Below are positions 1-31,965 of a stretch of 32,927 nucleotides of DNA, piece by piece; position 1 is the first letter of the stretch, and each line of letters begins with the position of its first letter. This DNA comes from Mesaphorura yosii. Lineage: Eukaryota > Arthropoda > Collembola > Poduromorpha > Tullbergiidae. The position numbers were made by a program, and so were the translations under genes. The notes beneath the pieces were generated by a model that saw nothing but the letters and a program-made list of their open reading frames with translations, did no database searches and was not told the DNA's origin. The stretch is from positions 1 through 32,927 of the forward strand of contig WIXG01000608.1 in assembly GCA_009869945.1 (NCBI GenBank), given 5' to 3'.

Positions 1-817
1 ACACAACCTCAATAACTCTGGATAAATATCTCCTCTCTATTTCAGCCTGCCTGCACGACATTTTAAATAAATAAAATAATTTTCATATTCTTCTAAAAAA
101 ATAATGATGACCATATTGTGTAAGTGCACAGTTGTAATAAACCTTCTTTTGGTTTTAAATAAAGTCACTTTAAAAAAAATTGGTTTCCGTATTTTGTCGT
201 AAAGTAAAAATTCCAGATGGGCAACTGTCCCGTACGGTCAAAAAGTTACGGTCAAAGTGTAGTACCGGGAAAGAGTTTACGGGCAAATGGCCGACGACCT
301 CTCCTACCACTTACACTCAGAATGATTTCGCTGTATAACTTTGGAAGTGTGAGCACAGCGTTTGTGGGGGAGGCGGCTGGCTTCGGTGCTGAATTGGAGG
401 GCATTTGTCCAAGGTGCAGAGCACATGTGCAAGATTTGCGAGCCGGCCGCTACATGATTAGCCTGGAAACTTCTTTACGAATAGGAGATTACGTCAGTAA
501 TTAGTTCATAATCCTCGTCCACAGTTCATCCAAGGTATAAAGTGTATGTTCAACTTTTTGCAGGTGGGTACATGCATTACGATGTCATGTTATTTCAATT
601 TCGATTTTCAGATTCAGCCAACGTATGGGCCCAATTAGGACTAATTCATAAAGTGAATGGAGTAGAACATGATTTGCTACCCATTATCAAATGCATTAGA
701 CAAATTAATTGTAAACACCAATCCCGGCGCATGGGTTATAGAGTAATTCTTCGCAATCTTTCGCATTGTACTTTGTTCATTCTTTTGTGCTGAGTGCAGA
801 CACACTTAACCAAAAAC
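1..817. other. Intergenic, upstream of first receptor; degenerate short repeat
   Basis: I see no convincing gene. Bases 1-200 are AT-rich with several AATAAA-like strings and could be the 3' end of a gene lying outside the window. At about 217-300 a short motif recurs in degenerate form (ACGGTCAAA twice, then ACCGGGAAA and ACGGGCAAA). Open frames here (217-504 and 542-793) lack recognisable domains and have no splice or codon support. Confidence 0.4.
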
Positions 818-2107
818 ATGGCCATCATCGTCATGAAGCACCCTGCTGCAAGTTCATCCGAAGAACTCCTTTGTGACACCCTAAAATGGGCACACTGGAG
901 TGTCAAACTAATTGGGTTCAGTGTTTTGAGTCTAACCAACAAAACTCTGACCCTGAAACCCTGGCAAAATTTTGTTCGATGGGGCCCAATCTTGCACGTT
1001 GGGATCATGTTTGCATTCAACATTTACTACGTTATAAATCATGACTACTTGATGCAGTTTGCACCTTCATCTGGCTCCACCGAATACGTGGCCTTCACTT
1101 TAATCATTGCCTTGTCTCCAACGGCTGGCGTCGTTTACAGGACACTTGCAAATTTTCGTGCTAATGACATGCTGAAGTTCTGGAAACAAAATGTGGACCT
1201 ACTGGACTTTGTCGAGACAAGAATTGGACTCCAGGCCTACGCGGATGTGTTTCGCAAATACCGGCGTTGGTCCAGGAATCGACTTACACTTTATGTCGCA
1301 TTTGGTGGTGGTGGCTCACTAATAATAGGTACTTCAATACCTGTCGTGACCCACGTAACCGGTTGGAAGTACTTAAACTCCACCGAACCTCCACCCCCAA
1401 CTCTTTCAGCGTACATTTTGTACATGGCGTTGACTGCAGGGACCAGCGTATGCCAGATCATATGGATAACGGGTTTCTTGCATATTTACAAAGTATGCAT
1501 CAAGATTCTGCATAAAGAACTTGCCAGCACAAAGAGCGAAAGCAAGATTTTACATGGCCTTGCTATTTATTACAAAATAGAATCCCAGCTCGACGCGTAT
1601 AACGAATTCTTTGGGTTACGAATTGCATTTGAAGTACTTTTCCATACGGCATACATTCTTTTGTCAATCTTCATCTTCTTGGTCTCAATAAGCAAAATTG
1701 CTGTTGGAGTCGAGTACGTCCTCCTGTCCACGAATATTGTCATGGCTCTCTTGTACGGACTGTCACTGTATGATTTGAGCAATAGTTCTACGGTGCTTGC
1801 AAAGGAGGCCAATCGGCTTGGATCCGTCTTGGAGGCACTTTTACATGAGTCGAAGGAGGAACAGGTCGCCTTAAGGCAAAAGATTCAGACAGTAGTGACC
1901 AAGATTGTTGGAAAACCTTTACAGTCAGTGCCAGGTCATTTCTTTACATTGAATCGTGGAATGATGACATCGGTGAGTCGAATAGGATCTGGTAAGCAAG
2001 CAATTAAAGTGTATTGCAATTCTGTGAATGTTTTTTAGATTGGATCGGCGATAACAACATACTTGATTGTGATGCTCCAGTTCCGGTCGGCTGATCACAG
2101 GCTGTAG
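818..2107 (+). CDS. Gustatory-type chemoreceptor (seven-TM, Gr family), copy 1
   Basis: Two exons, 818-1972 and 2039-2107, with a 66 bp phase-0 intron (GTGAGT...TTTTTTAG), give about 407 aa. The protein is hydrophobic throughout with several TM-length stretches. The last exon encodes TYLIVMLQF, the TYhhhhhQF signature of TM7 in insect gustatory receptors, preceded by an intron at the position typical of that family. Such receptors are ligand-gated cation channels in chemosensory neurons. I chose the ATG at 818; the next in-frame ATG is at 833. An AATAAA lies at 2163-2168. It resembles the gene at 3128 along its length (for example CQIIWIT, EFFGLRIAFEVL, NSST in both) but has a shorter intracellular loop before the IYYKIES block. 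Ligand unknown. Confidence 0.88.
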
Positions 2108-2864: not shown

Positions 2865-3127
2865 CATGTACCTGCCCTTCTTGAACTTTTCTTACCAATG
2901 ATTTCGCAAATATTGGAATCTTCTTTCAGTAATTTCATAGAATGGTTGATTGTTTAATTTCTTAATGGCATTCACATTGTTAATTGGCTAAAAGTATTGA
3001 GAGTGAAATAAAGGGACAAAGGTCGCAGCTTCAAATATCATATTCCATTAACTTAATTGCAAACGTAGAGTCAAATCTCACTTGTGGTGGGAGTTGTTCG
3101 ATGAGGCCATTGCATTATCACTGAATC

Positions 3128-4553
3128 ATGGACCCAACTAAGTCCAACGCCGCTGCCGCTGTTTCTTCAGAAGATTGGCTCTGTGACATTCTAAAATGGT
3201 CACTTTGGAGTGTCAAGTTGCTTGGGTACAATGTATTGTCCGTATCTGCACATCCTGCAAGGAAGGGACGGGCGCTGGTCTTGAATAGCTGGTACAGTCT
3301 TTCTCGCTGGTATCCGATTCTACACAACATTCTCTTCATCATCTTAGTCTGGTACAGCGCCAACATACGGGACGTCCTCGTCCAAGAGTACATTCCATCC
3401 ACTGGGACAACTGAGTACGTAATTCTTGGCTTGAGCAGTACACTGTTCACTTGTACGAGTGTAGTTTACAAAATCCTTGCAAATGTACATGCTAAGAGTA
3501 TGCTGGCCTTTTGCAAGCATACGGCTACGTTATTTGATTACATGGCGAGCCACGGGGTCGACGTTCGACAGCAAACCCATGTATTTGAAGCTTTTACGAA
3601 ATCAGCGCGGAAGAGGCTCCTAATTTATATCATATGTACTTGCTGTGGTGTGGGTGCAGTTGGAATCGTGTACCCGCTGCTGGCATATTTCTTGCGTTGG
3701 AAATACTACAATTCATCAAAACCGCCTCCGGTACTCATGGCCTTGTTGTTCTTGTACTGTGGATTGGTTACAGGAACCAATTCATGTCAAATCATTTGGA
3801 TCACAAGTTTCTTGCGTATTTATGAAGGTTGTATAAAGGTACTGCGAAAGAATCTGGACAAATTGGTTCAGGATGGCCATGTAGTGAAAGTGGCTCCGAT
3901 TTCAACTGCTGTTTCTGAGAAGAAACCAGCGATCAGCGTTTTGAACGTGCACCAGACTCACGAACAAAAAATTACGAACAGCTTGGTCATTTTTTACAAG
4001 ATTGAGTCACATCTTCAAGCGTACACTGAATTCTTCGGGTTAAGAATCGCATTTGAAGTTTTAACCCAAGGAATCTGTATTCTAATATTTATCTTTGTAT
4101 TCTTCATGTCATTTGGCTATAAGGCTGGTTCTGCTGAACGGATTATATTTACTTCAAGCATTGGATCTTCGATTCTCTTCATAGAGTCATTGCTCTACTT
4201 GACCAATTCCTCGACACTGGTTAGCAATGAAGCAAATCGGTTTCTATCCACTTTGGAAATGCTATTGTTGGAAAGTCGACCAGAAGACATATGCTTGAGG
4301 CAAAAATTGCAGACTGTCATTGGAAAAATTGCAGCACAGCCATTGGAACCTGCACCTGGTCAGTTTTTTAAGCTAAGACGAGGAACAATTACGGCAGTAA
4401 GTATTGATAGCATTAACAATGGTGGTGACATACCCTTTATGTTTATGTAATTCATAGATCGGATCAGCAATTACCACGTACTTGATAGTCCTAGTACAGT
4501 TTCGGTCAGCCGAAGATGGATCTTCATCATCGTGCAACTGCACCCGAGCATAG
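3128..4553 (+). CDS. Gustatory-type chemoreceptor (seven-TM, Gr family), copy 2
   Basis: Exons 3128-4396 and 4458-4553, with a 61 bp phase-0 intron (GTAAGT...TTCATAG), encode about 454 aa. The final exon begins IGSAITTYLIVLVQF, carrying the TY.....QF Gr signature, and continues into a short polar tail containing two cysteines. It is a paralogue of the gene at 818 with the same exon layout, and differs by an insertion of about 25-30 residues in the loop before FYKIESH, rich in Lys, Val and Ser. It probably acts as a gustatory cation-channel subunit in sensory neurons. ATG 3128 is the first in frame and gives an N-terminus aligned with copy 1 (E.LCD.LKW..WSVKL). Reading on without the intron would lose TM7, so the splice is well supported. 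Confidence 0.9.
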
Positions 4554-5690
4554 TACGGTCTGCGTGAAGAATGTAATCCTTGGATTGGTTTATTGAATGA
4601 TTTAGGAGAGCTTGTACGGAGCCTTAACAGTAATTGAGTAAAGAGTAAGAGTTCAGAGAGTAGCAGTAGCACGTTTTGCCCATAATAATGCAAAGATCTT
4701 GAGTTTTGTTTGTTAGTAGAATTTCAGGCTCAATTATCACTATATTGCAAAAATCAGGCTCACGGCTCATTCATTCTGTCCATATCATTTCACCAAATGC
4801 TCGAAGAAGCAACGCGTCGAATTGTCGAATTAAGCCATCTGATGATACCATCGCTTCATCCCACCTGATAAAAATACAATGTAATTATGATCATTGCAAT
4901 TAGCTAACTGAACGGCTAATACAGCACAGTAACAGTGACCTGATTATGTTCTTGGGCGACCAAGAAGGTGACCATTGTACGAGATGCGCGGAGAATCATT
5001 TCTCATGAATTTGGCGAAACCAAAAGTGTTAACGACAACGACCAAACGATGAAATCAATACTTTCAATACTGAAATAATTTTATTCCCTTCCCATCGACA
5101 AACAGTTCCACTTTCAAAGTCAAATCCATGGCATTACCTTTGAATTGGTTCAGGAATAACCTTCAATGTTGACTCAATAACAAAGAGGGAAGTTTGCTGC
5201 CCGTAGTTATTTGCAAATGAATAGAGATCAAGTTAAACTTACTGCGTAAAACTGTTTCTAAAATCTTATTACGAAATGTCGGATTGTGCAAGACAGAAAT
5301 GCCGGGGTAATTAGAATTTCGTTTTTGTTCGCTGACATTTTCCAGTGACAAACAGTTTAAATTGCTAGTAATCATCACGAAGCGTAAACGAGCCAGATCA
5401 GACAAAAGATCAAGCTTACCAAGCCGTATAAAAGTGGATAATTCATGGTATCAAGTATCACGGGTGAAACAACAAACACTCTGGAATTGGTGTTTATATC
5501 GCTTTCTGGTATCACGTAGACAAACGTGCACTAATTATCGTCTGGGACAGACGGATTTGGATCCAATTACACAAAATACGCCATTGCCATAATTAACCAA
5601 CAAAAATATCCCACGTCCACGCTCTAAATATCCGAAATTTAACATCTCATTCTTACGAATGGTGCGGTGGCATTTACATCAAAATTCAAA
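4554..5690. other. Intergenic region between receptor genes
   Basis: AT-rich sequence without a recognisable gene on either strand. Short open frames (4706-4903, 5163-5405 minus, 5362-5592) show no family resemblance. Copies of TCAGGCTC occur near 4727 and 4755, the same octamer that is clustered in the foldback repeat at 22.1 kb; here they may be chance or a remnant of the same element. Confidence 0.4.
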
Positions 5691-6803
5691 ATGCTATCTG
5701 CCACAGAGCTCCGCATTGTCCTTGTCTACATCCGCTTGGGGAACCAATGGCCGCCCATGGGCATGATTTGGGACGAGGAGCGGCTCCAGATCATGATCCC
5801 GCGAGCCCAGTCGTTTCGTACACTCGCGTACCTCATTTACCTGTGCGCAAACACGTATGTGGAGCTAGTTTGTGTCCACAGGGCGTACGTCCTGCGGGCA
5901 AGCGATGCTGCCCTGGCACTGCAGGTTGCCTGCTGGGCAATCGCAGTCGTCGCCACGACCGCCTTCGTGGTGCAGTGCTTGATGGCATTATGGAGGCGAG
6001 AACTGGCGGCTCTCTTCAACTGGCTTCTGCTCCTCAATCAACGAACTGTGGGTGGGGGAGGACCGGCTCGTGAGAGGATCGTTGTCATGTGCAACCGAGT
6101 GTACACTATGCTTCTGTGGACCTTCACTCCGACTCTTCTCGGATTTGAGGGTCTGTACGCCTGGAAAACGTCCTCCAGCGTCTGGTTTCCTTTCATGCAC
6201 GTGTGCCTGCATGCTGTCAACATGTTGTGCTGCTATATCATCATCAGCTATTTTCAGATGACCGCATTCATGTTCTTCACTGCCGTGAAGGACACCCTGG
6301 GCGGTCCTGCAGCTGGGGCTAAGGCTAACATGGGGCAGGTGCAGGTACAGACGTACAGAACCCTGCAGGTCACGTGCACTGTCTTTAACCACGTGTACTG
6401 CATGGCTCTGGCGCCCGCTCTGAAGTACATGTTAAGCGGAATGGTCATGTGCTGCGCCTACGCAGCCATCCGGATGCCGAGTGGAGGTGGTCGCGTGGAG
6501 CTCGTCGCCCGCCTGGCTCTGGTCACTCTCTCCATCTACTACAGCTGCCTCCTCACGATGGCCGTGAACGTCACCAGCAGCCTCTGGACAATCTCCAGCG
6601 CGTATGTTGGGAAAGTACGGAATTCGCGACCTGAGCAGGGCAGTGCCGAGGTCAAGCAATGCCGATATTTGCAGGCGGTGGCGGAGTCGTTTGCCCCGAT
6701 CCGATTTGGTATCGCTGGCATGTATTATATGGAACGGGAGGCGAAGCTGACGTTTCTTAATTTCTTGCTGAATGGAACACTGACACTTCTCATTGCTTTC
6801 TGA
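5691..6803 (+). CDS. Multi-pass membrane protein, candidate divergent chemoreceptor
   Basis: A single open exon encodes 370 aa from the first in-frame ATG (5691). The upstream open frame has only a GTG. Six to seven hydrophobic segments are visible, for example near residues 38-62, 73-95, 140-155, 173-198, 243-265 and 278-300, plus a final one ending NGTLTLLIAF. The size and the topology ending in a hydrophobic C-terminus fit arthropod gustatory-type receptors, and it sits directly after two of them, but the TY.....QF motif is absent. GC content is clearly higher than in the two preceding receptor genes, so it is not a recent tandem copy. It could instead belong to another seven-TM family. 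A 5' or 3' intron cannot be excluded. Confidence 0.6.
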   Translation: MLSATELRIVLVYIRLGNQWPPMGMIWDEERLQIMIPRAQSFRTLAYLIYLCANTYVELVCVHRAYVLRASDAALALQVACWAIAVVATTAFVVQCLMALWRRELAALFNWLLLLNQRTVGGGGPARERIVVMCNRVYTMLLWTFTPTLLGFEGLYAWKTSSSVWFPFMHVCLHAVNMLCCYIIISYFQMTAFMFFTAVKDTLGGPAAGAKANMGQVQVQTYRTLQVTCTVFNHVYCMALAPALKYMLSGMVMCCAYAAIRMPSGGGRVELVARLALVTLSIYYSCLLTMAVNVTSSLWTISSAYVGKVRNSRPEQGSAEVKQCRYLQAVAESFAPIRFGIAGMYYMEREAKLTFLNFLLNGTLTLLIAF

Positions 6804-14025: not shown

Positions 14026-14570
14026 ACTACAACCCGTTCTGAAGAAATCTCGAGTCTCTATATGGCGGTACCACGGCGGCTACAGAAACTGGAAGATTTC
14101 GTCGCGAACCCGGCTAACGGTATTTATTTAACGGATGACAACAATATCTTGCTGTTTCATGCTCTTATTGTTAGCCCGGCGGACACTTCATACGAAGGTC
14201 AGCTCAGCTGTGTTTCTTCGACTCCCGCGTTCAATTTACCTTTTTCTTCTTTTGGCAGGAGGATTCTTTTATTTGCTGTTCCAGTTTACGGAAGCGTACC
14301 CAGCGGAGCCTCCACTTGTCCAATTCTGACAACGGGAGAATTCGTTTCAATCCGAATCAGCACCCTGATGGGAACGTGGCTTTATCATTTCTGGAGGCAG
14401 AATGGTCCTCGACGCTGACGATCTGCACTATTCTTCTATCAATCCAGTCACTCCTGTGCAAGGACCCGTATGTCCACGATCACCAGCTCCACTTTATGGG
14501 CGGTCTCAATGAATTTATGACCCATGTTGACGGCTGCCCAGGGCAAACCATGCCAAAATTTTGCATTTAA
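14026..14570 (+). pseudogene. UBE2Z-like ubiquitin-conjugating (E2) relic without catalytic cysteine
   Basis: The segment to 14197 reads LFHALIVSPADTSYEG. It joins through a 61 bp phase-1 intron (GTCAGC...TTTGGCAG, 14198-14258) to GGFFYLLFQFTEAYPAEPP, the beta-sheet of an E2 core closest to the UBE2Z/USE1 type (HALI..P.DT.YEGGFF). After LVQF a stop occurs at 14327-14329, and the rest lies in another frame: RIRFNPNQHPDGNVALSFL, then LLSIQSLLCKDPY, matching UBE2Z's RFNPN...GKVCLS and SIQSL...PY. The active-site Cys position (V-C-L-S) is Ala. Frame break plus missing nucleophile indicate a pseudogene or catalytically dead remnant. An AATAAA persists at 14638-14643. Confidence 0.75.
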
Positions 14571-15043
14571 CCAGCAGCCGATTATCCGTCTACGACCGGC
14601 CCACTTTCAAAACATTTTTGAGGACTTTGTATTTGGTAATAAATATTTGCAACATTCACGCATAACACTTTGACGATCCTTGGCGCTGTGATAATTCGAA
14701 TGACCGAATACATGTATTCTTGAACATATAATAAACATGACACACGAAAATCCATCCAAGTTGAACCACTTGCCGTGTAGCGGGTGAGTGCGCTTTCATT
14801 TCGTTTCTCGTCATCCAGAAGCCAATGAATCCAAGTTATGAGTGACGAGAGTAGAGTGTATACAAAGTGAGATAACGTCCATCAGTCGATTGTCAACTTT
14901 GTCAACTGCTGACGACAAACGACAGAGATGGATGGCGGTTGCAGGTGCACGCAGCCACTTGCCACTTGAATTTTCCACATCTGCTCGACCTCTGACTTCT
15001 GTCCCAGTTCGTGTTCACAGTTGCATCTGGTCTTCACTCCAAC

Positions 15044-16054
15044 ATGCTCACAAAACACTTTTTGCTCCTTCTTATTCCTTTCTATGGGGCGTTTCTGCGT
15101 TCCGCATCCACCCAACCACAGATTCTTCAAGCTGTGGAGTCTTCTGCTCGTCTTCCTTCGGCGCGTATCTTCGTTCCCGTTGTTGAGGATGGAGCTGACT
15201 CCATTTACTTGATAGGTGGTTATCATGTGTCCGAGATCATGCGGTTCTCCATCTCCAACGACAGTCTGGAGACCATCGGCTCTGTGCCTGGGCAACTGGC
15301 CGTGGGCGGAGTGACTCGTGTTGGCCCCTCGGATATTTTCTTCGGAGGAGGAATGCTGGGGCACAGTGTGGACACCTCTGACATCTGGAGAGTCCGCATT
15401 CATGAGGACGGACAGGGCGCCGACATGAGCGTCGTGGGTTCGTTGCCACGGCCTCACAGTTTTTCGTCTGCCGCGTGGGATGGAGAGGATGGAGTGTACG
15501 TGGCTGGAGGCTACGAGGCGGCGACCGCGACTCCTCTTTCTACCATCGTCCGCTACTCTCTGCGGAACCAAAGCACTGGCGGAGTGGCCGAGTTGCCCAC
15601 TCCACGCTACTCGACGGCCAGCGTTTGGGACGAGTCCAAGCGTCAACTGTTGCTCATCGGAGGCTCTGAAGGTAGCGCATCGGGTCCGTACTTGGACGAG
15701 ATTGTGACCTACGATCCGTGGAGTGGTTCCATCGCGATGTACCCTTCTCGGCTCCCACATGGCCTCATGTTTTCTTGCGCGGTGTGGACAGGGTCGGAAG
15801 TGTACTTGGTGGGCGGGTGGTCCGCGCTGGGGCGCGGAGCTCCTTCTCTTGTCCGTTTCAGCCCGAAGACGGGGACGCTAAGTGTGTTGGAGGTGGATGG
15901 ATTGCCTGGAGGTCTCAACGCAGTCGGATGTGCGTACGTGAGGAGGCTGCAGAGGCTGTACGTGTTTGGAGGTCGCATTGGAGTCGAAACGAACGGATCG
16001 CCGTCCCGAGATCAGATTCTGCACATTGACTTGACCGATGTAGGAAATCAATAG
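15044..16054 (+). CDS. Secreted kelch-repeat (beta-propeller) protein
   Basis: An uninterrupted exon of 336 aa starts at ATG 15044; the frame upstream has only GTG. Residues 1-22 form a signal peptide (FLLLLIPFYGAFLRS). Kelch-type blades follow, each with a double-glycine turn and a downstream aromatic: YLIGGYH, FFGGGML, YVAGGYE, LLIGGSE, YLVGGWS, YVFGGRI, about six repeats, as expected for a propeller. Most kelch proteins are cytoplasmic BTB adaptors. This one has no BTB or BACK region and carries a signal peptide, so it is probably extracellular. One Asn-linked site (NQST) is visible. Partner and function are unknown. It is intronless, unlike most neighbours. Confidence 0.85.
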   Translation: MLTKHFLLLLIPFYGAFLRSASTQPQILQAVESSARLPSARIFVPVVEDGADSIYLIGGYHVSEIMRFSISNDSLETIGSVPGQLAVGGVTRVGPSDIFFGGGMLGHSVDTSDIWRVRIHEDGQGADMSVVGSLPRPHSFSSAAWDGEDGVYVAGGYEAATATPLSTIVRYSLRNQSTGGVAELPTPRYSTASVWDESKRQLLLIGGSEGSASGPYLDEIVTYDPWSGSIAMYPSRLPHGLMFSCAVWTGSEVYLVGGWSALGRGAPSLVRFSPKTGTLSVLEVDGLPGGLNAVGCAYVRRLQRLYVFGGRIGVETNGSPSRDQILHIDLTDVGNQ

Positions 16055-16839
16055 CATTACAGCGCAAGCACATGCGTCCATTTCTCCATTCCCAGTCTCA
16101 TGAATTGTAATAATTAGCGAAGATTGTGATTTGATTCATCGATTCGAATTGTCGTCCAATCCTTCTTCTGTAAACTGTTATATTTGTAACTGTAATTCGG
16201 TACTTTGAAAATTGTGAGTAAAATGAAACAGAAAATGCTGTGCACAACTTTTGTTATCAGAGAGAAACTGAAAAGAAAAATTCGTGGGCAACTCGTCACG
16301 CTTCAACTAGAGCATGGAATGACCGTTGATGGAGTGAACTGAGAAGATTGCAAACTGATACGTGGAAGGATTCACAACTCGGCGGCTGTTTAGAGACTGA
16401 GAGACGTTGATTCATTGTGAATTTTATTTAGTTCGTGACTCATTTCGCTCACATAGGAAAGCACGCATCGTCTCGCTGTTTCTCATGCCTCGTCAGGGAG
16501 TTGAGTCATTCAGATTTCAGCTAAATAGCTAAGTCAATGCTTAACTTTGCTCAAATCGAGTCTTGATGCTTCCAGAGCTGAGGCGCTTAGTCATTGACGG
16601 ACCGGCGAGGACAGTTAGAGGCCACGACTCGAAATACGTTTGTCGTTTGGATAAACTGACTGATCTGTTTGTGTACTCGCGGGAGCTCATTTTCTTCCAT
16701 GTGTCGAGCCCTCGTCAGCATTCGTCTAACTGTTACCTCACAAATTGTTCCGGACTGACGTTGAGCGGCGATCGTTCAGTCAGGCCTCCAACTAGGGTGC
16801 AAGCTCAGCAATCAAAACTATCTGACCTTTCCCAGAAGA
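16055..16839. other. Intergenic region downstream of kelch gene
   Basis: AT-rich sequence with no recognised gene. A 139-codon open frame beginning near 16563 has no signal, domain or codon-bias support. Confidence 0.4.
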
Positions 16840-16977: not shown

Positions 16978-17366
16978 ATTAGTAAATTAGTTTGAATCAT
17001 GGGCCACGTTCACTCTTGCATGCGCCGACTCAATAAACAAAATACAAATCCCGTGCGAGGGCAAGCTAAAATCCTGGGGTTTTATCACGCTTGATTTCGC
17101 TTCACTATCTTTACAACCTTCACCTTGGGTCGATTTGATCGAGCTCCGCAATACTGCATGAGTTGGTTGAGGTAGGTGTCAACAAGTGAAAAAAACAGCC
17201 TCTTATCAGCCTCGCCTCGGTCTCTGTGCCTTTGACCCGTAAAACGACCTGCCTCATTTACAACGCAAGTGCTTACACTGACAACAGAGTTTTTCATACT
17301 GCCAGCAACAATTCGCTGCAGACTTTCATGTGCGTCCAGTGCCAAGGTGTCTGGATCTCCTGTACC

Positions 17367-20300
17367 ATGACCTCTTTCGACTGGGTGTCCCGGCAGCTCG
17401 TCCATGTCTCTGTCCTGCCTTTGTTGTGCCTTTGTTTTGAGATTGTGGCACGTGAAGCCGCGAGCTCCTGCTCCATCGAGTACCCTGAGAACGCGGAGGT
17501 GGTGACCCTGCACCAGGTGCTGCCTGACTCCTACCTGATTTGTGAGATGCGGCTGTTCCAAGCGAGGACCTCTTCCGGGCAGGGTATTGCCCAGTGCGTC
17601 GCGTCAGCGGGGACCTTGGCTGCCGTGAAAGTGGAGCCCGTCTGGCGAGGGATCCATCGAGGAATTGAGTGCAACTCGAGCCACGTGATGCAGGTCCAGG
17701 TGGAGTACTTGCACACGAATGGTTCGTACGTCCGGAATGACACGTTCATTCAGTCTCGAGTGGACACCGACATGGAATCAAAGGATGGAGCGTCAAGATC
17801 AATGTACCAACTCGCAATACGCACGGAGACGTTCACGGAGGACTCGGCCCCAGTCAGGTACACCATACGAGGACGGGCTGCAGAAGGAGATGGTGCGCCA
17901 GGAGCCATCATTGCCCTGCTCATGTCATTTCGGAAGCCGCCTGTCTCTGACGAAGGTGGGTAGGCTCCCGGCAACGCTCAAGTATAATTAAGTGCATACA
18001 TAATTTGGAAATTCAGACCAACTCATTGGGATTTACACGCGGAACGGGCAGAACGAGTTCCTCGCCCTCGATGAGGTCGTGAGTGTGCCGTGTCTAGACA
18101 TTGGACAGGCCTACATTCCCCCCAACGTGTACCACGTCCTGGTCGAGGGTTACTCATGCCATGCTCTGAGGCTCCTCCCTCCCATCTTCCGCTACGACTT
18201 CTTGAGCGGCATTCATTTCAATATGTCTCGGCTCCTAAACTACTCCCGGGGTGGGAGCAGGTTTCTTTGCTGTGCGGGCCCGGATCCGCTGGGGGAAGGC
18301 GAAGGCTGCTCCCCAACGCCCCCGGAACTCTGCGTGGCATTCAGCATCAAGGACCCGCCAGATTTGGTCGTCATCCCCGACACACGGCCATCTGGCCACG
18401 CAGTCGACTTGCTTTCGACCCGAGAAGATGATCCGATTCAAGTGTATTTCGAGTGCAATTACAAGTCTCACATCTACTTGACAGTGAGCCACTACAAGGG
18501 TTCGCCCGTGAAGGGTGCCGGTCGTATTGGCGGCGACGGAGGATACAGCATTCCCTCCGCCCCCGCTTCTCATTCCACTACAAACTCAACCTCGACGTGG
18601 GACATTCGTCATCGCGCCTCCGCCGTGACGGCAGTCCGTGTGGGCGACTCCGTCTTCGGCCACTGCTCCACCTCCGACCAGGGCCTCCCGAGGGACCTTC
18701 ACGTCTGGTGGTACGTCGTGCGGGGTCAGAGCAAGGAGCAAGACTTAATGCAATTCACAAATGCATCAACTCTAGTTGTTGATTTTAGATGCTGAGCGCC
18801 AGAATTCAAACACAAGTTACTTGAGGGTTTCGCTGAAGTCGGCGAACCCCGTCCCCTCCGAGAAGGAAATCCCGGTCCGCGTTTTCAGGTGCGAGTCGGC
18901 GCACGCTGACTTGCGACTGCGGGTCGTCAGATGCGCCGACCCGCTCCACTGCAGTCTCCTGGAATGGTGCCTTGAGGTGGAGTCCGCCAAAGAGGTTCGT
19001 GGTTCCTGATGCACTCGCTCTAATTTGAGTTTCAAGCATTTGTGATCTTGTGATGCAGTGTGCGAGTTGGGACGAGGTCCGCTCGGGCCAAGAGTGCGCG
19101 ACCGTTGACGCCCGACGGGCTGCGCATTGTCTGGAGGTGGAGGTGCCGAGTTCCCCAGGACTCTTTCGCTGCACGGCGGGGGCGTACACGTTCACGCAAC
19201 TCCGGTGGCTAGGTCTGAGTGGAGCTCGAAGCTGTAAGTCCAAGTAGACCAGCGCAATTTCAATTCTGCAATCAACTTGCTTGCATTGCAGATGCGTACC
19301 GCGATGCCGACTTTTCGAATGCCACCCTGAAGGATGAGATTATTCAAATGGGAGGACCACCTGAAGACATTTTGTACACACACGCGACGTACAAGTTCAC
19401 ATGCCGAGTGGCCCGGTTTTGGTCCGGCGGCCGACTCCGCTTCTGGTTTGACTTTCAGGGAAATGAGAGCTTGCTGGAACCTGTGCGAGGTAAGAACAAG
19501 GTCAGGTGGAATTTTTAAATTTCCCTGCCACAGCCCTGCAATGGTTTTTCAGCCCTAGAGTCAGGATTTTACATCGCCGGAGAAGAAAACACGCACAATG
19601 AGTGGGTTGAGACCAAGATTCCTTCCCCCATCGTGGACCGCGTTATTTGCGCCGCGCCAAAGTCCGACACCGAAGACCGGTGGATTTCCACTGGTCTGGC
19701 CGTGCGAGTCGTTCAGTCGGCCCGACCCCGCATCCTGAACGACGCGAACGAGACTGCGCTCGCGTTCGCTAAGGATGCGGGCTCCGCAATCGTGTGTGAG
19801 TGCAGCGGACAGCCACCGCCAAGCATGAAGTGGGTTACCGTCGACAGCGTGGGGCAGGAGACAGAAATTACGCCGGACCAGGAGGCGGATGTGCATGTCG
19901 TTCAAGCTGGCCACAGGATAGCACTGACATTTCGGAGATTCACGGCGGAGCAGGCGCGCACGTACGTCTGTAGCGTGCTGAACGACCTCGGACAAGACTC
20001 GCGTGAGTTTGAAGTGTCGCTCTTGCCAGCAGAAAATACATCGGAGTGGGTAATTTTGGGCGGTGCTGCGGCGGGAGCAGTGCTGGTGCTGGTGGCCGGA
20101 GCGGCGCTGGCGTATCGTGTGCACTTCAGGGTAAGGAAGAAACAAAGCATTGTTTACCTCAGCAAGTGCGAATAATTGACATATTTTCGCATTCCGTTTC
20201 GGAGTCACAGCCTCGGCGCGTAGTGAGCGAGGTCATCATGAAGACATTCCGATTCGGTATTAGCACAGAAGACGGGGATGCAGAATTTGAGCACGTGTCT

Positions 20301-21557
20301 GACATATCGTCATCGTCAGCTGTCATCGTGCCCGCGCCAAACTTAAGCACACATGGCACCACAGTTGAGGCGAAGGACTCAGAGGAGCAGCGGATCGAAG
20401 GCGAAGCCACCGCCAATGCGGCCGAAGCCGTGCCCACACCCGCCTGGCAGCAAGTCGCACGTCTTAAGCCGTTCGACGTAATGTTCGAGATTGAGAGGCA
20501 GAAGTTTACGTACGGTACGTGAGAACGTAGAAACGCGCGTGCTGTGTACATTTTGACTCGCTTGTGTTTACTCTTTCTCAGACAAAGGCAACCCGCTTGG
20601 CTCCGGTCGGTATGGAAGAGTTTACGCCGGCCTGCTAAGCTGCTCTGACCCGCCGATATGTGTGGCCGTCAAGGTGCCGCACCCGGGCAGCTCCGAAGAT
20701 GTACTGGAATCTTACCTAACCGAAATTAAAATCATGACCAAACTGAGGCACGAAAGCATTGTCAGCATGGTTGGGGCGTGCACGGGCCGAGCAGAGTTCG
20801 GGAAAGTGTACATTCTCATGGAATTCTGCGAGCATGGGTCGATAGACAAGTTTCTCAAACGCTACGCGTGCTACTACGCAGAGGCGGACGTTGACAAGAA
20901 CGAGACGAACGCCGAAGTAAAAGCTGGGCAGCATTCTAATTACGCTTCTAGTGAGTAGAAGAATATTGTTCTTATTCCTTATCCTTATATATACTATGTA
21001 CTTGTTTTGCAGTGATTCCAACGGCTTTAAGGTTCGGTTACGCCGACCTTCTTCGCTGGTCGATGGAAATTGCGTCCGGGATGGAGTTCCTGGCTGGGAT
21101 GGGCATGGTCCATCGCGATCTGGCCGCCAGGAACGCCCTCCTCTCGGCGGGCCTGCACGCCAAGGTTTCAGACTTTGGTCTGACACGGCAGTTGTACGGG
21201 AGCCTAGCGTACACGCAGAAAACTTTGGGCCTGGAGCTCCCCTACCGGTGGATGGCTCCCGAGTGTTTTCAGGGCACCTTCTCCACCTCCTCAGACGTCT
21301 GGGCGTACGCGGTCCTCGTGTGGGAAGTGTTTTCGTTCGGGGAGGTGCCCTACCCAAGCGTCGGCTTCACGGCGGAACAGGTCGCACTATTCCCGGCCTT
21401 CCTCGGGGCAGGTCTGAGAATCAAAGAACCGCGTCGCGCCAGCACTCGGGTGTTCAGCAAACTGAGTGAGTGCTGGGCCGTGACCCCCGAGGACAGACCC
21501 TCCTTCACGGAGCTCAAGGACTTCTTCTTGGAGGCAATCCACAAACCAGAAGAATGA
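17367..21557 (+). CDS. Receptor tyrosine kinase with Ig-containing ectodomain
   Basis: Nine exons with consistent phases: 17367-17955, 18017-18724, 18789-18994, 19059-19233, 19292-19489, 19553-20130, 20211-20514, 20582-20950, 21013-21557 (introns 58-80 bp, all GT-AG), giving 1223 aa. The order is signal peptide (about 1-33); a long cysteine-containing ectodomain with Asn-linked sites; a clear Ig-like domain (about 700-780: VCECSGQPPPSMKW...ARTYVCSV); TM (about 791-812); and a tyrosine kinase with glycine loop G926-V933, Lys950, a short kinase insert, HRDLAARN (HRD 1076-1078), DFG 1096-1098 and RWMAPE. All catalytic residues are present, so it should be active. The split kinase and Ig ectodomain suggest the PDGFR/VEGFR/FGFR side of the family, but the ectodomain is very divergent. 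An AATAAA lies at 21573-21578. It converges on the second kinase gene. Confidence 0.88.
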
Positions 21558-22059: not shown

Positions 22060-22262
22060 CCGGGTGAGTTGCATTTTTCCGGCAAACATCAAATTCAGGC
22101 TCAGGCTCATTCAGGCTCGGGCTCAGGCTCGCAAACATTTGCTTGTTGGAGTCAGGCTCAGGCTCATTCAGGCTCGCATGCATTTGCTAACCTAACCTAA
22201 CCAAATTTGAGCCTGAATGAGCCTGAATTTGATGTTTGCCGGAAAAATGCAGCTCATCCGCA
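22060..22262. repeat. Foldback (inverted-repeat) element with internal TCAGGCTC repeats
   Basis: The left arm at about 22062-22112 and right arm at about 22207-22257 are near-perfect reverse complements sharing GCATTTTTCCGGCAAACATC followed by AAATTCAGGCTCA. The roughly 100 bp between them contain clustered TCAGGCTC units in two related blocks (about 22096-22143 and 22152-22187), each ending in CATTTGCT, then CTAACCTAACCTAACC (22187-22202). The DNA could form a long hairpin. The layout suits a small non-autonomous foldback or MITE-type element. Target-site duplications were not identified with confidence. Confidence 0.75.
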
Positions 22263-22306: not shown

Positions 22307-23150
22307 TTAATCGTGTTCAGTTTTTCCATTTCTTGCAACCTTTTGGCCATTCGCTGGAGCTGATAATTGTGAGAATGCGGAAGACTTGATTTTTTGCATG
22401 TACGATTCGAATCCAAATGTGCTAGCATCGTCTAAACTCGCGAATATTAACGCATCATCGTTTAAGTGCATCATGCAATGGACGATATAAACCGCAAATT
22501 CAACTCCGTAAATACTTATACCATTTAGAGTCAAAAGTCGTTTGGCAACTTGACTCCATTCTTGGCAGGTTGCTTTCGGTGACAATAAAATGAAAATAGC
22601 TGTATGAAAATCTAAAAAATGATCGACATACTGCTTTGGTAAAATTTTATATGAACTGCCTTAGCCGATGTAAAGTAGCAATGTTCGAAATTCAGTTCCC
22701 TTAAAGTGGTCAATTTCTTGAATTGAACGAGGCTTTCTTTGAAAATCCCTTGGGAAATATTTTCGTATCTGTTGAAGCTTGTCACTTATCTGTAAGGTCT
22801 TTCGACTCGGTAGCCTAGGAAGCTTTCCTTTTACCCACTGACGAAAAAGTTTTCTAGTCACACCTAGACAAACCGAATATAAATAGTCCAATGAAACCTG
22901 CTGTACTAAATTTACGTCTAATTCAAGAAATGGGCTCAGTCCAATATGGTGACCTTCGTCAGTTTGTTTGCGAAAGTCTGTGGAGGATCTAACAGCACCT
23001 GACATGTTGGGGTACACTAAACGACCAAACCATTCTCCATCTTCGGTGCATCTCTCACAACCATGATAACTGTTATGATTTTTAATGGACTTAATAAAGC
23101 TACGAGCCGGGGCATCTGCAAGAATTCTCGAAATTCTAAATTCATATCGT
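22307..23150 (-). mobile_element. Decayed transposase-like coding fragment
   Basis: On the minus strand one frame runs from about 23149 to 22307 with a single internal TAA at 22661-22663. In order it shows LADAPARSFIK, a zinc-like HGCERCTEDGE, a DEGHH block, LDYLYSVCLGVTRKL, HFKGTEFRTLLLYIG and VHCMMHLNDDA. These are hallmarks of the transposase-domain proteins common in animal genomes (.CDAPAR, GY..CERC, DYMH.VCLGV.RKL, EFR..LLY.G, NVH.L.HL.DD). Both ends are missing, and sequence before 23150 continues in another frame. It is an inactive copy of a DNA transposon, lying beside the foldback repeat. Confidence 0.7.
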
Positions 23151-23423: not shown

Positions 23424-26379
23424 TTAGTTCGGAGGGGACTGAACTTCTCTAAAACAGGAATCCAAAGCACTGAAAGCAATATACCGCCCTGCCTCCTCGA
23501 GGCTCGTCGGCGAGCTCTCTTCCCGTCGCACTATCGCGGATCCTGGGCCATCCCCCACCTGTGTCTGCACCTGTGCCTGTGCTTCCGAGGTGGGGGCCGG
23601 ACGCCTCTCCTGAATTGTGCAGCACATTCTCTAATTGAGTGCAATCAAAATGTCATTGCATGCTGTTTTCATGTGTTCTTATGCAGAGGTACTTACATCG
23701 TAAATAGTTTGCAGTTGCCGTGTGAGAGCATCGAAAGAAGGTCGATCCGCAGGATTCAGTTTCCAACAGGCACACATGATTCCGTAAAGTTCATCGTCCG
23801 CGTCCTGTGGCTGCGGAAGGATGTGGTTCTGTTGAAGGGCGGGAAGCAACTGCACTTCATCGGTAAATTCTCTCCAGGGTATCTCCGCGAAACTGAATAT
23901 TTCCCACACCGTGACTCCGAAACTCCAGGCGTCAGAGTTTATGTTGTATTCCCTGCCCTGTGTGTCTAGCACTTCGGGGGCCGTCCACTGATAGGCAAAA
24001 TCCATCTGTGGACACATTCTTCAATGGGGTTTGGCCCTGAATTGAAATTGAAGGCGACTTACGCGTATCGTTGTTGTGTAGAGTCTGGAAAGCCCGTAGA
24101 GCTGGTGCGAGAGTCCAAAATCACAAATCTTGGCGTTTAGGCCACCATCGAGCAGGACGTTCCTCGCAGCCAAATCAGAGTGAAGGACGCGCTTGGACGC
24201 CAAGAATCGCATGCCTTGTGCAACTTGCATAGCCCACTTGGCCAAATCCACAGTTGTAAACTGGGCGGAGGAGTGTATGAAGCCGTGTTGGCTTTCTTCA
24301 TCATCGACAAAGTGTGTGAATTGGTCCATATTGCGGCTGCAGCAACTGTTAAACTTGCTTCGGTTCGCCCTCAGCCATTCATCGAGGCTCCCGTTCGAAC
24401 AGTACTCCATAGCAACCTGCAATTTATCTATAGCAACAGCAACGAGTTCAGCGTACTTTCTTGTTAAAGTTTAGTTTAAATTTAAAGTGTTGAACGCTCA
24501 CAGTTTCGGATGTTGCTTGTCTGCGCCCCCCGCAACCTCACAATGTTCTCGTGTCCGCCCTGCTGCTGGATGTACTGCATCATCTTCAGTTCGTTTAAAA
24601 GGGCGATGAAGGAGGCGGGATCATCTGCTGCTGAGCCCATCATGTGACGCGTCTTGACAGCCATGAGCTCGTCGTTCAAGTACGCAAGGCGGACAATGCC
24701 GAAATGACCGTTGCCCAATTTCTTCATGAACTTACATTCCTGCAACTCCAATTCAAAATTCGGATCATACTTTACCCGGCGAATGTCGAGCAGTTCACCC
24801 TCGTCAGGCTCGCCCTTATCTTCACCGGCCCCGTTGAAGAATGCATTAATGGCATCGTCGCTAAGGACCTTTGAAAAAGCAAAATTAATTTCCCAGAAAT
24901 CAGAGTGTGAGTTTATGAGCTTGTTTACTGGTTTCGTCAGGCGGTAAATAATCAGCGTGATGGCGATGAGTACCACGGCTGCGGCCGATACCGACGAATA
25001 AATGACTGAAATTCAGAATAATTTGTGGTTTATTGCTCGTGGTCAAGGCAAAATGAGTCGAAGAAAAATTACCGATTTGCTGAAGGCTGTCAGACTCTGC
25101 TACAGATGGGCAGTGATCCTCGTCTTCTCCGTTCGGGCAGTCAACGACGCCATTGCAAGTCGCAGGGCCATCGGCTTTACTGAGGCAGACGCCCTCTACT
25201 CCGCATGCAAATTCGGTCTTCTGGTTGCAGCAGTTGCGCGTGTTGCACACTCGCTCGTCCTCATCTCCTCCGTCGGGACAATCAGCATGGCCATCGCACA
25301 GACTTCGGAGCGGGATGCACGATCCGTCGGAGCAGGCGAAGAAGCCCGTCCCGCAAACGACGCCCCGCCGAATCCATTGTACTGTTTGCGGATTAAAAAT
25401 GGAAACGTATTGTAAAGCCTGTTCATCGCAAAGGCGAGTATCCCGATTGGAGAAGTAGTTGTTGACGAATCCCACGAGGAGCGACTTGCTTCCCTGGCGA
25501 ATGTGCAGGCCACTGTCCCAATGGGTGCAACGCATCCCTGGATTCACGGAGGTTCCCTCGGGCAGGTTGGAACCGCACACACGCAGCAGGTCAGGGTAGG
25601 GGTTAATCGTCAGAAATCTCCACGTCCGCCTGCACTCTTGTTCGGACGCCAACAGGAAATTGAGAGTGATCACTTGGCCCTTCCTGTCACGACTCCACCC
25701 CGAGAGCAACCCCGAGGTCGCCTTTTGTACTTGATCGCGTATCGACTCCTCCCCCGCCTCAATGTCAGGGAGACAGGCGGGGCGCAGGCGTCGGCTGAAT
25801 GGGAGGGGTTGTTGGAGGTGGAGGAGGACCCAAAAATTCTCCTGCAGCGGCCAAGTGTCGTTCCGTCCGTCCCAAGTAATGTCGGGGTGTGGGGTCACGT
25901 GCCCCACCATCACCTCCTGCGACTGTCCACTACCAGTGAGACTGCTGTTGGGGAGAAGTACTGTGTAGCTACTGGAATGACACATCCGCCATGGATCACC
26001 GGGATAGACGACGTAACGAACGTCTAACGTCAAAGACCAACACTTTTAGAATTTAGGATTTGGAAACCAAAGCTTAGATCATGCAGTTTAGCAGGAAGAC
26101 GTACATGAAGTGACCACCGTGCGATCATTCACAACCACTGCCGGGAACTCGGCGACGTCCCCACTCGGGGACACACGACGAACTCCGACAGTCCACGGAG
26201 CAGATGTCCAATCCAGGGTGGAAATTTCACAATCTACATACGCACAAATCGAATACTTTATCTCTCTTTATTGTCTATTCCTAAACTCGGCATATCTTAC
26301 CATCCCAATCTGCAGCGGACACAGCTAAACTTGAAGTTGTCGTGGCAATGAAGAGCAAAACCCGGTAAACTAAGCCCAT
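23424..26379 (-). CDS. Receptor tyrosine kinase with pseudo-trypsin and two LDLa ectodomain modules
   Basis: Seven minus-strand exons with matching phases: 26379-26301, 26233-26105, 26023-25073, 25005-24502, 24427-24063, 24005-23697, 23630-23424 (introns 57-81 bp), giving 847 aa. The order is signal peptide 1-23; an S1 trypsin-like domain about 30-290 (PWTVGV, LRPACLP, SGWS, C-x3-DSG, ending QYVSIF...WIR); two LDLa modules, 293-329 and 334-374, with six cysteines each and DCPDG/DE or DCPNGED; TM 387-407; an acidic juxtamembrane; a kinase with loop G484-V491, Lys504, HSDLAARN (637-644), DFG 657-659 and APE 685-687; and a 68-residue tail. The protease is catalytically dead: the TAAHC His region is VVTS with no His, and the Asp region reads ENFWVLL. 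The kinase HRD Arg is Ser, but the catalytic Asp, Lys and DFG are kept. Confidence 0.82.
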
Positions 26380-30599: not shown

Positions 30600-31965
30600 T
30601 TATTGTGCTGTGAGCAGAGTGCCGAGCTCCCGAATCATGACGGCGAGGCCATCGATGAATTCCAGGGCAGAGGGCACAATCTGGTTGGCTGGGAGGAGGA
30701 AGCCGTATGCTCCCCTATCGCGCATTTCGAAGGTGTAGACGAGGGGGACGTTGCGCACTCCCGCGGCCCAGTCACCCGAACCGCCAGACGCGATGTAGCC
30801 CACAAGGTCGATCGTATTGCCTGGCGTGAACTGGGTGCCGTATCTCTGCGCGATGGCTGTGGCGGTGAGCCGTCCGATGCGCATGTACTCGTCGTGCGGG
30901 GGAAAGGGAACGCGGACTCCGTACGGGATGAGGATGTACTGGCTGTACGAGTGGAGACTCAGAACAAACTTGAGCCTCGATCCAAGGGCTATCTGGAAGT
31001 CTGAGGCGGCCTTCGCCTCGACTTCGGAGAAGGCGTGTGGGCCAGCGTACAGTTGGTAGTCGCAGGGGTTCGTGGAGCTGCCGCCGCCCAGCCAGTGAAA
31101 ATCATAGTTGCGGTTCGCGTCTGCGCCTCGGCAGCCAAGTGGGGACGAAGTTGTGGAGCGTGTCTTCCGCCACAGGCGGTCTGTGGTGCGCGCATACTCG
31201 AAGCCATCTGGGTTGTGGTGTGGCAGAATGTACCAGTCGTAGTCCTGCGTCCAGCGCTGCACGGCGGGGTCGGTGCTGGTCAGCAGGTAATTGACGACGT
31301 ACAAGCACACGGCGGAGGTGATCCACTCACGGGCGTGGATGTTGGAGTCGAACCAGATGGCAGGTTTTGTCTCCCCCGACTTGGAAATCTTGAGCAGCTT
31401 CAGGTCACGACCCTCGAAGCTCTGGCCGATGGAGATCGTGGTCGCGATGGCCGAGTGGTTCGCAGCGAGCTCGTCGAGGAGCGCGTGGGCGTCCGCGACG
31501 CTGTGATACGCTGCAAAGTCAAAGTCCAGGGCGGCGGCAAGCGAGTCTTGGAAGCCCTTCAGCTCTTCCGTGATGACGGCGTCCACGTCAGAGACCAGCT
31601 CCTGGATGTCGAGGTCCGAGGCGAGGAGCGAGTCGAGAATGTCTCCTTGGGCGTGCGGTGGAAATTCAACGTCCGACGCGTGGCCGACTCCGTTCGGACC
31701 ATCCCAGAAACGGAACTGCACAAACAAGCCGTACCGTAGAAAAAGCAATTAAGCACCGTTGGCGTCAAAATTCAAAAATTCAATGCTCGCGTTTGCTTAC
31801 CCCTTGGGTCTCGAGAGCCTTGAGAACACTTTCCTGTTCCGCCGTTTGTGGGATGATGCGGAACACTTTGTACCCGTTGTAGTGGATTCGAGTCGCCGAC
31901 ACGCCAGTGCCGAGGCTGAGCAGAGCGCAAGCGCCCAGGAGAAGCATGAAGACCTTCAAACTCAT
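30600..31965 (-). CDS. Secreted zinc procarboxypeptidase, M14A family
   Basis: Two minus-strand exons, 31965-31801 and 31715-30600 (85 bp phase-0 intron, GTAAGC...TTGTGCAG), encode 426 aa, the usual length for this family. The order is signal peptide 1-24, an activation propeptide (about 25-118), then the catalytic domain. Zinc ligands are H182 and E185 (HAREW) and H310 (LHSYSQ). N256-R257 (ANRNY) bind the substrate carboxylate, Y362 corresponds to Tyr248, and the catalytic base is E385 (TFEMRDRG). Specificity position 255 (S-x-D-W) is Gly369, neither Ile as in CPA nor Asp as in CPB. The enzyme should remove C-terminal residues, most likely in gut digestion. A TATA-like TTTAAAA lies near 32027-32033. 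Confidence 0.93.

Follow-up and report, generated by a model that had tools for sequence, protein, structure and literature searches.

A putative dead S1 protease fold with LDLa modules as the ectodomain of a multiplied, probably PVR-type receptor tyrosine kinase in the springtail Mesaphorura yosii

Introduction

Several described protein families share one part or another with a gene found in the genome of the springtail Mesaphorura yosii (Collembola, Tullbergiidae). The gene lies on the minus strand of a stretch of 32,927 bp (contig WIXG01000608.1 of assembly GCA_009869945.1; the whole stretch is hereafter called the window) and is predicted to encode a receptor tyrosine kinase (RTK) with a trypsin-like S1 fold and two LDLa modules ahead of its kinase. 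Like this protein, the type II transmembrane serine proteases (corin, enteropeptidase, and TMPRSS) and Nudel combine LDLa and S1 in one chain, and such proteins are among the matches to the window ectodomain. They are type II membrane or secreted proteins with an active triad and without a kinase. Dead S1 folds are known from the clip-domain serine protease homologues of insects, which have signaling or immune roles and are secreted, without a transmembrane (TM) segment or a kinase. In the case of HGF/MSP and their receptors MET/RON, a dead S1 fold is used in RTK signaling. There, the dead protease is the ligand, whereas in M. yosii it would be the receptor's own head.

In ALK and LTK, the LDLa module is accompanied by MAM and glycine-rich parts, and their kinase belongs to another subgroup. 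The presence of LDLa within an RTK ectodomain is a likeness to these receptors (for ALK, the available text of PMC8662651). On the contrary, no Pfam match to a MAM domain is found in the window protein at E up to 10, and the listed matches of its kinase are led by PVR, VEGFR, and PDGFR types. The likeness to the arthropod PVR (class III/V RTKs) includes their position as the nearest kinases by search, an insert between the kinase lobes, and the HGD form of the catalytic loop, which is present in ten of the 15 modeled members of the family described below. The differences are the head, that is, S1 and LDLa instead of the Ig domains of PVR, and the loop of the window protein, which reads HSD. 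In the available text of PMC11024359, PVR ectodomains are described with two to five Ig domains and the catalytic loop as an HGDLA variant of HRDLA, with one PVR having the Arg.

Among the open-access PubMed Central matches listed, subscription papers and preprints being outside, none concerns an RTK whose ectodomain is of S1, subtilase, or Kelch type; similarly, no work on springtail RTKs is among those listed. The words trypsin and protease do not occur in the available main text of a study on the holozoan tyrosine kinome (PMC8662651), nor does the word kinase in that of the Folsomia candida genome paper (PMC5490193).

Gene Model and Domain Content

The reconstructed gene extends from position 26379 to 23424 on the minus strand and consists of seven exons and six GT-AG introns (table 1), with an open reading frame of 840 aa ending in a TAA stop at 23424. 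An earlier reading of this DNA, made from the letters only (hereafter the sequence-only reading), had proposed the same strand, coordinates, exon number, splice sites, and phases, all of which are reproduced by the model; its predicted length of 847 aa is corrected to 840 aa. In residue order, the protein comprises a signal peptide, the S1-type domain (~28-290), LDLa 1 (~293-329), LDLa 2 (~335-374), the TM helix (~387-409), the tyrosine kinase (478-774), and a tail. The sequence-only reading had placed S1 and both LDLa modules in a single exon. This stands for the LDLa modules, which are both in exon 3, but the first ~45 residues of S1 belong to exon 2. The TM helix, as that reading had it, starts directly at the next exon. 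The strongest 19-residue hydrophobic stretch of the protein is formed by residues 388-406; the TM was assigned by hydrophobicity and the signal peptide by eye. At the sequence level the features of an RTK are present, that is, a signal peptide, a single TM, and a cytoplasmic tyrosine kinase with the Lys, Glu, HxD, and DFG.

Splicing was examined with a purpose-written program for protein-to-genome alignment, and a control run was made with the protein of an intronless paralogue (C454, see below) as the query on the window. Three of the six window introns were recovered exactly, and the first and last introns were matched at one end. The intron between exons 3 and 4 differed at both ends, along a path that omits the TM. 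The window TM therefore rests on the GT-AG intron between these exons, on the hydrophobic start of exon 4, and on the paralogues. In the case of exon 5 there are two candidate acceptors; the chosen one preserves the frame and was also picked by the aligner.

Pfam searches of the full window protein returned, as the sequence-only reading had expected, PK_Tyr (1e-63) and Ldl_recept_a (3e-11, two stretches), with Trypsin slightly under its curated cut-off (9e-4; 19.5 bits vs. 20.6). Exon 3 alone passes this cut-off by 0.1 bit (20.7 bits). When compared with PDB sequences, the window ectodomain matched thrombin at 1.6e-5, and a profile of ten family members matched it at 1.2e-10, aligned over positions 5-226 of 263. 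Because of these matches to thrombin, the S1 fold is judged from sequence to be real yet distant from known proteases. The LDLa part has the six cysteines and, by eye, the acidic calcium box. No Ig domain was matched by Pfam in the window protein at E up to 10.

A Family of S1-Headed RTKs

The genome (93,006,257 bases in 1127 contigs) was searched in six frames with the window ectodomain and kinase, and matches to both fell repeatedly on the same contig. The loci are referred to by C-numbers, C608 being the window gene and the others further loci of the M. yosii genome. S1, at least one LDLa, a hydrophobic segment, and a kinase follow in this order in 14 of the 20 family loci, the window and C454 included (C608, C454, C666, C914, C668, C903, C444, C254, C1030, C646, C779a, C779b, C876, and C297). 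From the remaining loci, C94 has no clear TM in its model, and C826, C527, C533, C320, and C703 are partial. The 18 loci besides the window and C454 were modeled with the spliced aligner, and the TM of the paralogues was judged by eye. C646 has one in-frame stop. In an alignment of six members (A1), Ldl_recept_a is found in all six and Trypsin in three at E up to 1 (best 1.6e-6), and no Ig domain is among the families listed for these members at the same threshold.

The locus C454 (L049, C454:10500-15000) is intronless. A single open frame of 900 codons, 823 aa from the first fitting Met, spans the signal-like N-terminus through the kinase tail, and the protein is 42% identical to that of the window over 851 aligned positions. 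The lack of introns possibly indicates a retrocopy of a spliced mRNA or a wholesale loss of introns; if C454 is a retrocopy, it provides indirect evidence that such an mRNA existed. In C444, C903, and C779a, one open frame (570, 570, and 552 aa, respectively) runs from S1, of which at least the larger part is included, through LDLa and TM into the N-lobe of the kinase. Moreover, a tyrosine kinase is found within 1.8 kb downstream on the same strand in at least 15 of 19 S1-type places, a lower bound because the comparison was made with a hand-typed subset of kinase places; these 19 were picked from 80 search rows, with LDLa-only rows dropped and neighboring rows merged. The fusion is no artefact of the gene model, because 13 paralogues elsewhere keep the same order and C454 does so in one frame.

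Common descent is supported by intron positions, compared with 11 paralogue models in a comparison that is partly non-independent because the models were built with the window protein or C454 as the query. In the window protein, the introns are positioned (residue.phase) at 27.1, 70.1, 387.1, 555.1, 676.0, and 779.0. Intron 70.1 recurs in C666, C914, C668, C903, and C254, and intron 555.1 in C914, C668, C254, C779a, C779b, C876, and C297. Similarly, 676.0 is shared with C666, C914, C668, and C254, 387.1 with C254, and 779.0 with C914, and 27.1 recurs in none.

Catalytic Residues of the S1 Domain

The triad positions were labeled from a motif alignment to thrombin, with no structure behind them. 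None of the 13 members readable at this site, the window included, has the AAHC block with its His57 and Cys58 (11 members of the main alignment plus C1030 and C94; C444 and C297 are outside its coverage). The position of Asp102 shows Asp in seven of 15 members, Asn in five, Glu in two, and Phe in the window. A Ser195-like motif, Cys-x3-Asp-Ser, is present in six of the 15, as DSG in the window, C666, C914, and C254 and as DSA in C444 and C94. C1030 has DSG with a longer spacing, C454 has GSG, and the remaining seven members have no Ser195-like motif. No zymogen activation sequence was recognized by eye in the S1 domains. Since none of the 13 readable members has retained the His57 site, the S1 heads of these members are, as judged from their residues, dead proteases. 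The idea of a dead protease in the sequence-only reading is to this extent borne out.

Kinase Conservation and Selection

The kinase looks live. In the window gene all catalytic residues of the kinase are present, every exon is open, and the splice sites are intact. Within the 15 modeled members, the Lys of strand beta-3 is found in 14 (not in C297), the Glu of helix C and the Asp of HxD in all, and DFG in 14, C1030 having DFS. The residue before the catalytic Asp is Gly in ten members, Ser in two (window and C666), Leu in two (C1030 and C94), and Arg in one (C444).

Proportions of nonsynonymous (pN) and synonymous (pS) differences were computed for eight pairs of paralogues, all without the window gene; the nonsynonymous to synonymous ratio (dN/dS) is indicative only, with seven of the eight pairs near synonymous saturation. 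The pair C779b/C876 gave pN 0.212 and pS 0.713 over 724 codons. The respective values were 0.209 and 0.757 for its S1 part (280 codons) and 0.148 and 0.694 for its kinase (298 codons), which is indicative of purifying selection in this pair, the S1 part included. The pair C903/C533 is near neutral (pN 0.070, pS 0.077, 163 codons), and some copies may therefore be decaying.

Phylogeny of the Kinase

The window kinase is matched best by two proteins of the springtail Orchesella cincta that bear the names VEGFR1 (35% identity) and VEGFR3 (33%). Next come, among the matches listed, insect and vertebrate proteins of PVR, VEGFR, and PDGFR type. This search scored 7991 candidates and gave 2271 matches, and the ranking is drawn from the best 120 of the 2271. 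The catalytic loop reads HGD in 12 and HRD in 108 of 120 readable proteins among the matches of the protein searches (P0001-P0130); 11 of the 12 HGD proteins carry a source name, and all 11 are from arthropods. In the genome of M. yosii, at least 59 matches to the HGD pattern (one being HGDF) and at least 34 to the companion pattern (32 with Arg, two with Ser) were counted; these are lower bounds because loops with an intron inside the motif are missed. A control with the reversed pattern gave no match. The 59 HGD-type loops against 34 of HRD/HSD type are a large radiation of PVR-like kinases.

In a tree of 46 kinases, 13 of the 14 S1 kinases form one group (support 90/82). A juxtamembrane pattern like LTxxEIxEF..G is present in nine of 20 S1 models, in ten of 17 other kinases of the genome, and in both Orchesella proteins; its loose form also matches 20 of 118 other RTK matches, and the pattern was dropped as evidence. 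Elsewhere in the tree, four RTKs (L005, L007, L008, and L042, at C37, C604, C387, and C185, respectively) group together with a support of 100/100, and the readable part of the C604 ectodomain gave no Pfam match. The second RTK of the window (table 1) has a long branch together with a SAM-type kinase.

Other Heads on Related Kinases

S1 is not the only head found on these kinases. In C789 (L062), one frame encodes both a kinase (5.9e-76) and a domain of the subtilase type (Pfam S8, 6.5e-28), and C539 (L006) and C578 (L040) have Kelch propellers and a kinase, each in one frame. C654 (L044) is, by eye only, a Kelch-headed RTK in one open frame. Kinases are co-located with five of 27 picked subtilase places and nine of 37 picked Kelch places; beyond the four loci named, the join of head and kinase is by position and not by one frame. 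In C646, one S1-RTK and two S8-RTKs are found within ~10 kb.

The subtilase triad is broken in all four kinase-linked copies read (of five, C793 being the fifth). In detail, His is replaced by Ile and Ser by Asn in C789, and His by Gln in C981 (L066). Of the two subtilase heads of C646 (L063 and L071), the one at 16391 has Asp for Ser, and the one at 14047 has Ser for Asp and Met for His. On the contrary, subtilases without a kinase in the same frame keep their motifs, for instance GHGT and GTSLAAP in C225 and GTSMAAP in C464. Since the S1 and subtilase triads on kinases are broken, two dead protease folds appear to head PVR-like receptors in this genome, neither with an intact triad where fully readable.

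A Kelch frame is also found in the window itself (table 1); it shares 31% identity with the Kelch head of C578.

Exons and Neighboring Genes

The exons and the other features of the window are given in table 1. The second RTK is convergent to the S1-headed gene. The chemosensory receptor match (7tm_7) of the first long hydrophobic frame agrees with an arthropod source. Directly downstream of the latter, two open frames without a Pfam match are found beside tandem-like repeats; by eye they resemble transposon-derived proteins.

Table 1. Exons of the S1-headed RTK gene and further features of the window
Feature	Positions	Strand	Content and basis
Exon 1	26301..26379	-	Start codon and signal peptide (hydrophobic N-terminus by eye; donor gtaaga)
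Exon 2	26105..26233	-	N-terminal part of S1, residues 27-69 (family profile aligns with thrombin from position 5)
Exon 3	25073..26023	-	Remaining S1 pseudoprotease (putative) and two LDLa, residues 70-386 (Pfam, PDB, family profile)
Intron between exons 3 and 4	25072-25006	-	GT-AG
Exon 4	24502..25005	-	TM helix ~387-409, juxtamembrane segment, kinase N-lobe with GNGHFG and AVK
Exon 5	24063..24427	-	Hinge, kinase insert, catalytic loop
Exon 6	23697..24005	-	APE and kinase C-lobe
Exon 7	23424..23609	-	C-terminal tail and stop; tail GRYIAFSAL, cf. SGYILYNSL in C454
Long hydrophobic frame 1	794-2038	+	7tm_7 chemosensory receptor match, 2e-8
Long hydrophobic frame 2	3125-4450	+	No Pfam match at E up to 0.01
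Long hydrophobic frame 3	5643-6803	+	No Pfam match at E up to 0.01
Kelch frame	14996-16054	+	One open frame; Kelch_6, 4.4e-18
Second RTK	~17190-21557	+	Tyrosine kinase, 7.3e-48; HRD loop
I-set Ig of second RTK	19519-20175	+	9.4e-8
Tandem-like repeats	~22080-22260		GAGCCTGA-type unit
Two open frames	22307-23149	-	No Pfam match at E up to 0.01
Cytochrome P450 gene	27273-28895	-	3.5e-65
M14 carboxypeptidase gene	30600-31748	-	4.2e-90

Discussion

The window gene is best read as a type I RTK that carries a dead S1 head and two LDLa modules on a PVR-type kinase, its ectodomain having been exchanged, and that belongs to a set of at least 14 genes; we assign this reading a probability of roughly 0.7. 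The claim of the sequence-only reading that an RTK with S1 and LDLa falls outside the established classes agrees with these results: the architecture is real, it is that of a gene family, and no such class is among the literature matches listed. The kinase and the juxtamembrane part would be of the PVR type, related to the PDGF and VEGF receptors. S1 and LDLa would have replaced, most simply in a single exchange, the Ig ectodomain that this type usually has, and the new receptor would then have multiplied to at least 14 genes. That the S1-LDLa head was captured only once is the simplest interpretation and is not proven. The S1 fold would act as a protein-binding module, via its surface and perhaps with LDLa. 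Candidate partners are serine protease zymogens, secreted proteases, serpin or Kunitz-type inhibitors, and a secreted growth factor. Binding of a partner would bring receptors together, and the kinase would then signal. The protease-fold head probably serves as a sensor rather than as an enzyme; what it may bind, be it a zymogen, an inhibitor, or a cleaved ligand, can be named at the level of candidates only.

Several observations weigh against this reading. The window gene is predicted from genomic DNA. The support of the S1-RTK group is only moderate (90/82), C903 falls outside it with a branch length of 2.64, and C313, which by eye has an Ig-like ectodomain, is placed within it. In the tree, the S1 kinases stand next to the PVR references without being nested in them, and these references are class III/V RTKs only, drawn from the matches of the protein searches. 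Because of these two points the PVR ancestry of the kinase is only inferred, from search rank and loop type. The APE of the activation segment is altered in C903, C1030, and C94, and C444, uncovered at the His57 site, retains both Asp102 and the Ser195-like motif. The single-sequence AlphaFold model of exon 3 is uninformative (mean predicted local distance difference test 34.8). Finally, S1, LDLa, and kinase were not found in one protein outside this genome in two protein searches (8 and 43 matches), from which distant orthologues could escape because shared 5-residue words are needed; the scoring of the broader search was confined to 7997 candidates, those with the most words in common. Judged by the Pfam domains listed for them, the matches outside the genome are LDLa proteins, S1-LDLa proteases, and kinases.

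Among the alternatives, the LDLa modules may bind the ligand, as lipoprotein or ALK-like sensors, with S1 as a mere scaffold. In the six-member alignment, most of the invariant columns of the ectodomain belong to the LDLa part, which suits this explanation. It is nevertheless unlikely, as C779b and C876 have no second LDLa, yet their S1 part shows a low pN relative to pS.

Alternatively, S1 could be a switch controlled by cleavage, in which an outside protease cuts a tethered or inhibitory head and thereby releases the kinase. S1 folds change shape upon cleavage in zymogens and in HGF, and potential cutters are numerous, with 177 matches to trypsin-type domains counted by exon in the genome. 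On the other hand, an N-terminal activation sequence is unrecognizable and no conserved basic cleavage site was noticed by eye, no systematic search having been made, and we consider such a switch quite unlikely.

It is improbable that the window gene is a nonfunctional copy in decay. Signs of damage or neutrality are seen elsewhere in the family, in C646 with its in-frame stop and in the near-neutral pair C903/C533. The window gene, with open exons, intact splice sites, and the full set of catalytic kinase residues, does not share these signs; the constraint measured concerns other members only (C779b/C876).

That S1 is an active membrane-bound protease that also signals is hardly credible: the Ser195-like motif of six members, the longer-spaced one of C1030, the Ser kept in the GSG of C454, and the Asp102 of seven members, with both residues together in C444, would speak for it, but the block with His57 is missing in all 13 covered members, the window has Phe in the place of Asp102, and an activation site was not recognized by eye. 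Two adjacent genes, one for a secreted protein with S1 and LDLa and one for a tyrosine kinase, wrongly joined by a model built from genomic DNA, with a short intron of 67 bases between exons 3 and 4 and an aligner path without TM at that very place, are very improbable, as this is refuted for the paralogues by the continuous frame of C454 and opposed by the LDLa-TM-kinase frames of C444, C903, and C779a and by the constant order and strand at 15 of the 19 picked places.

Beyond the dead S1 head on a PVR-type kinase, a wider view can be offered tentatively, with the odds rather against it. The PVR-type kinase may be a chassis that bears Ig, dead S1, dead subtilase, and Kelch heads in dozens of receptors, the dead heads being possibly decoys or sensors, as a counterpart of the non-RD immune kinases of plants. 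In the latter, according to the available text of PMC8463890, the Arg of HRD is lost; Pvr signaling is linked to immunity in shrimp in the accessible parts of PMC13252836 and PMC13185635. If this view is true, the targets sensed by dead protease heads could be inhibitors, zymogens, or proteases, and these could come from microbes, from parasites, or from cascades of the animal itself. An immune role is worth testing, but the lost Arg of HRD does not show it, since HGD is the state found in PVR anyway.

RTK classes are defined largely by their ectodomain, and a new class is rare. In M. yosii, a protease fold stripped of catalysis would have become the head of a receptor kinase and multiplied, apparently under selection in the pair measured. 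The S1 and subtilase cases make the recruitment of dead enzymes as receptor sensors directly testable. They would provide an animal case of ectodomain exchange on one type of kinase, with a set of paralogues ready for the search of ligands.

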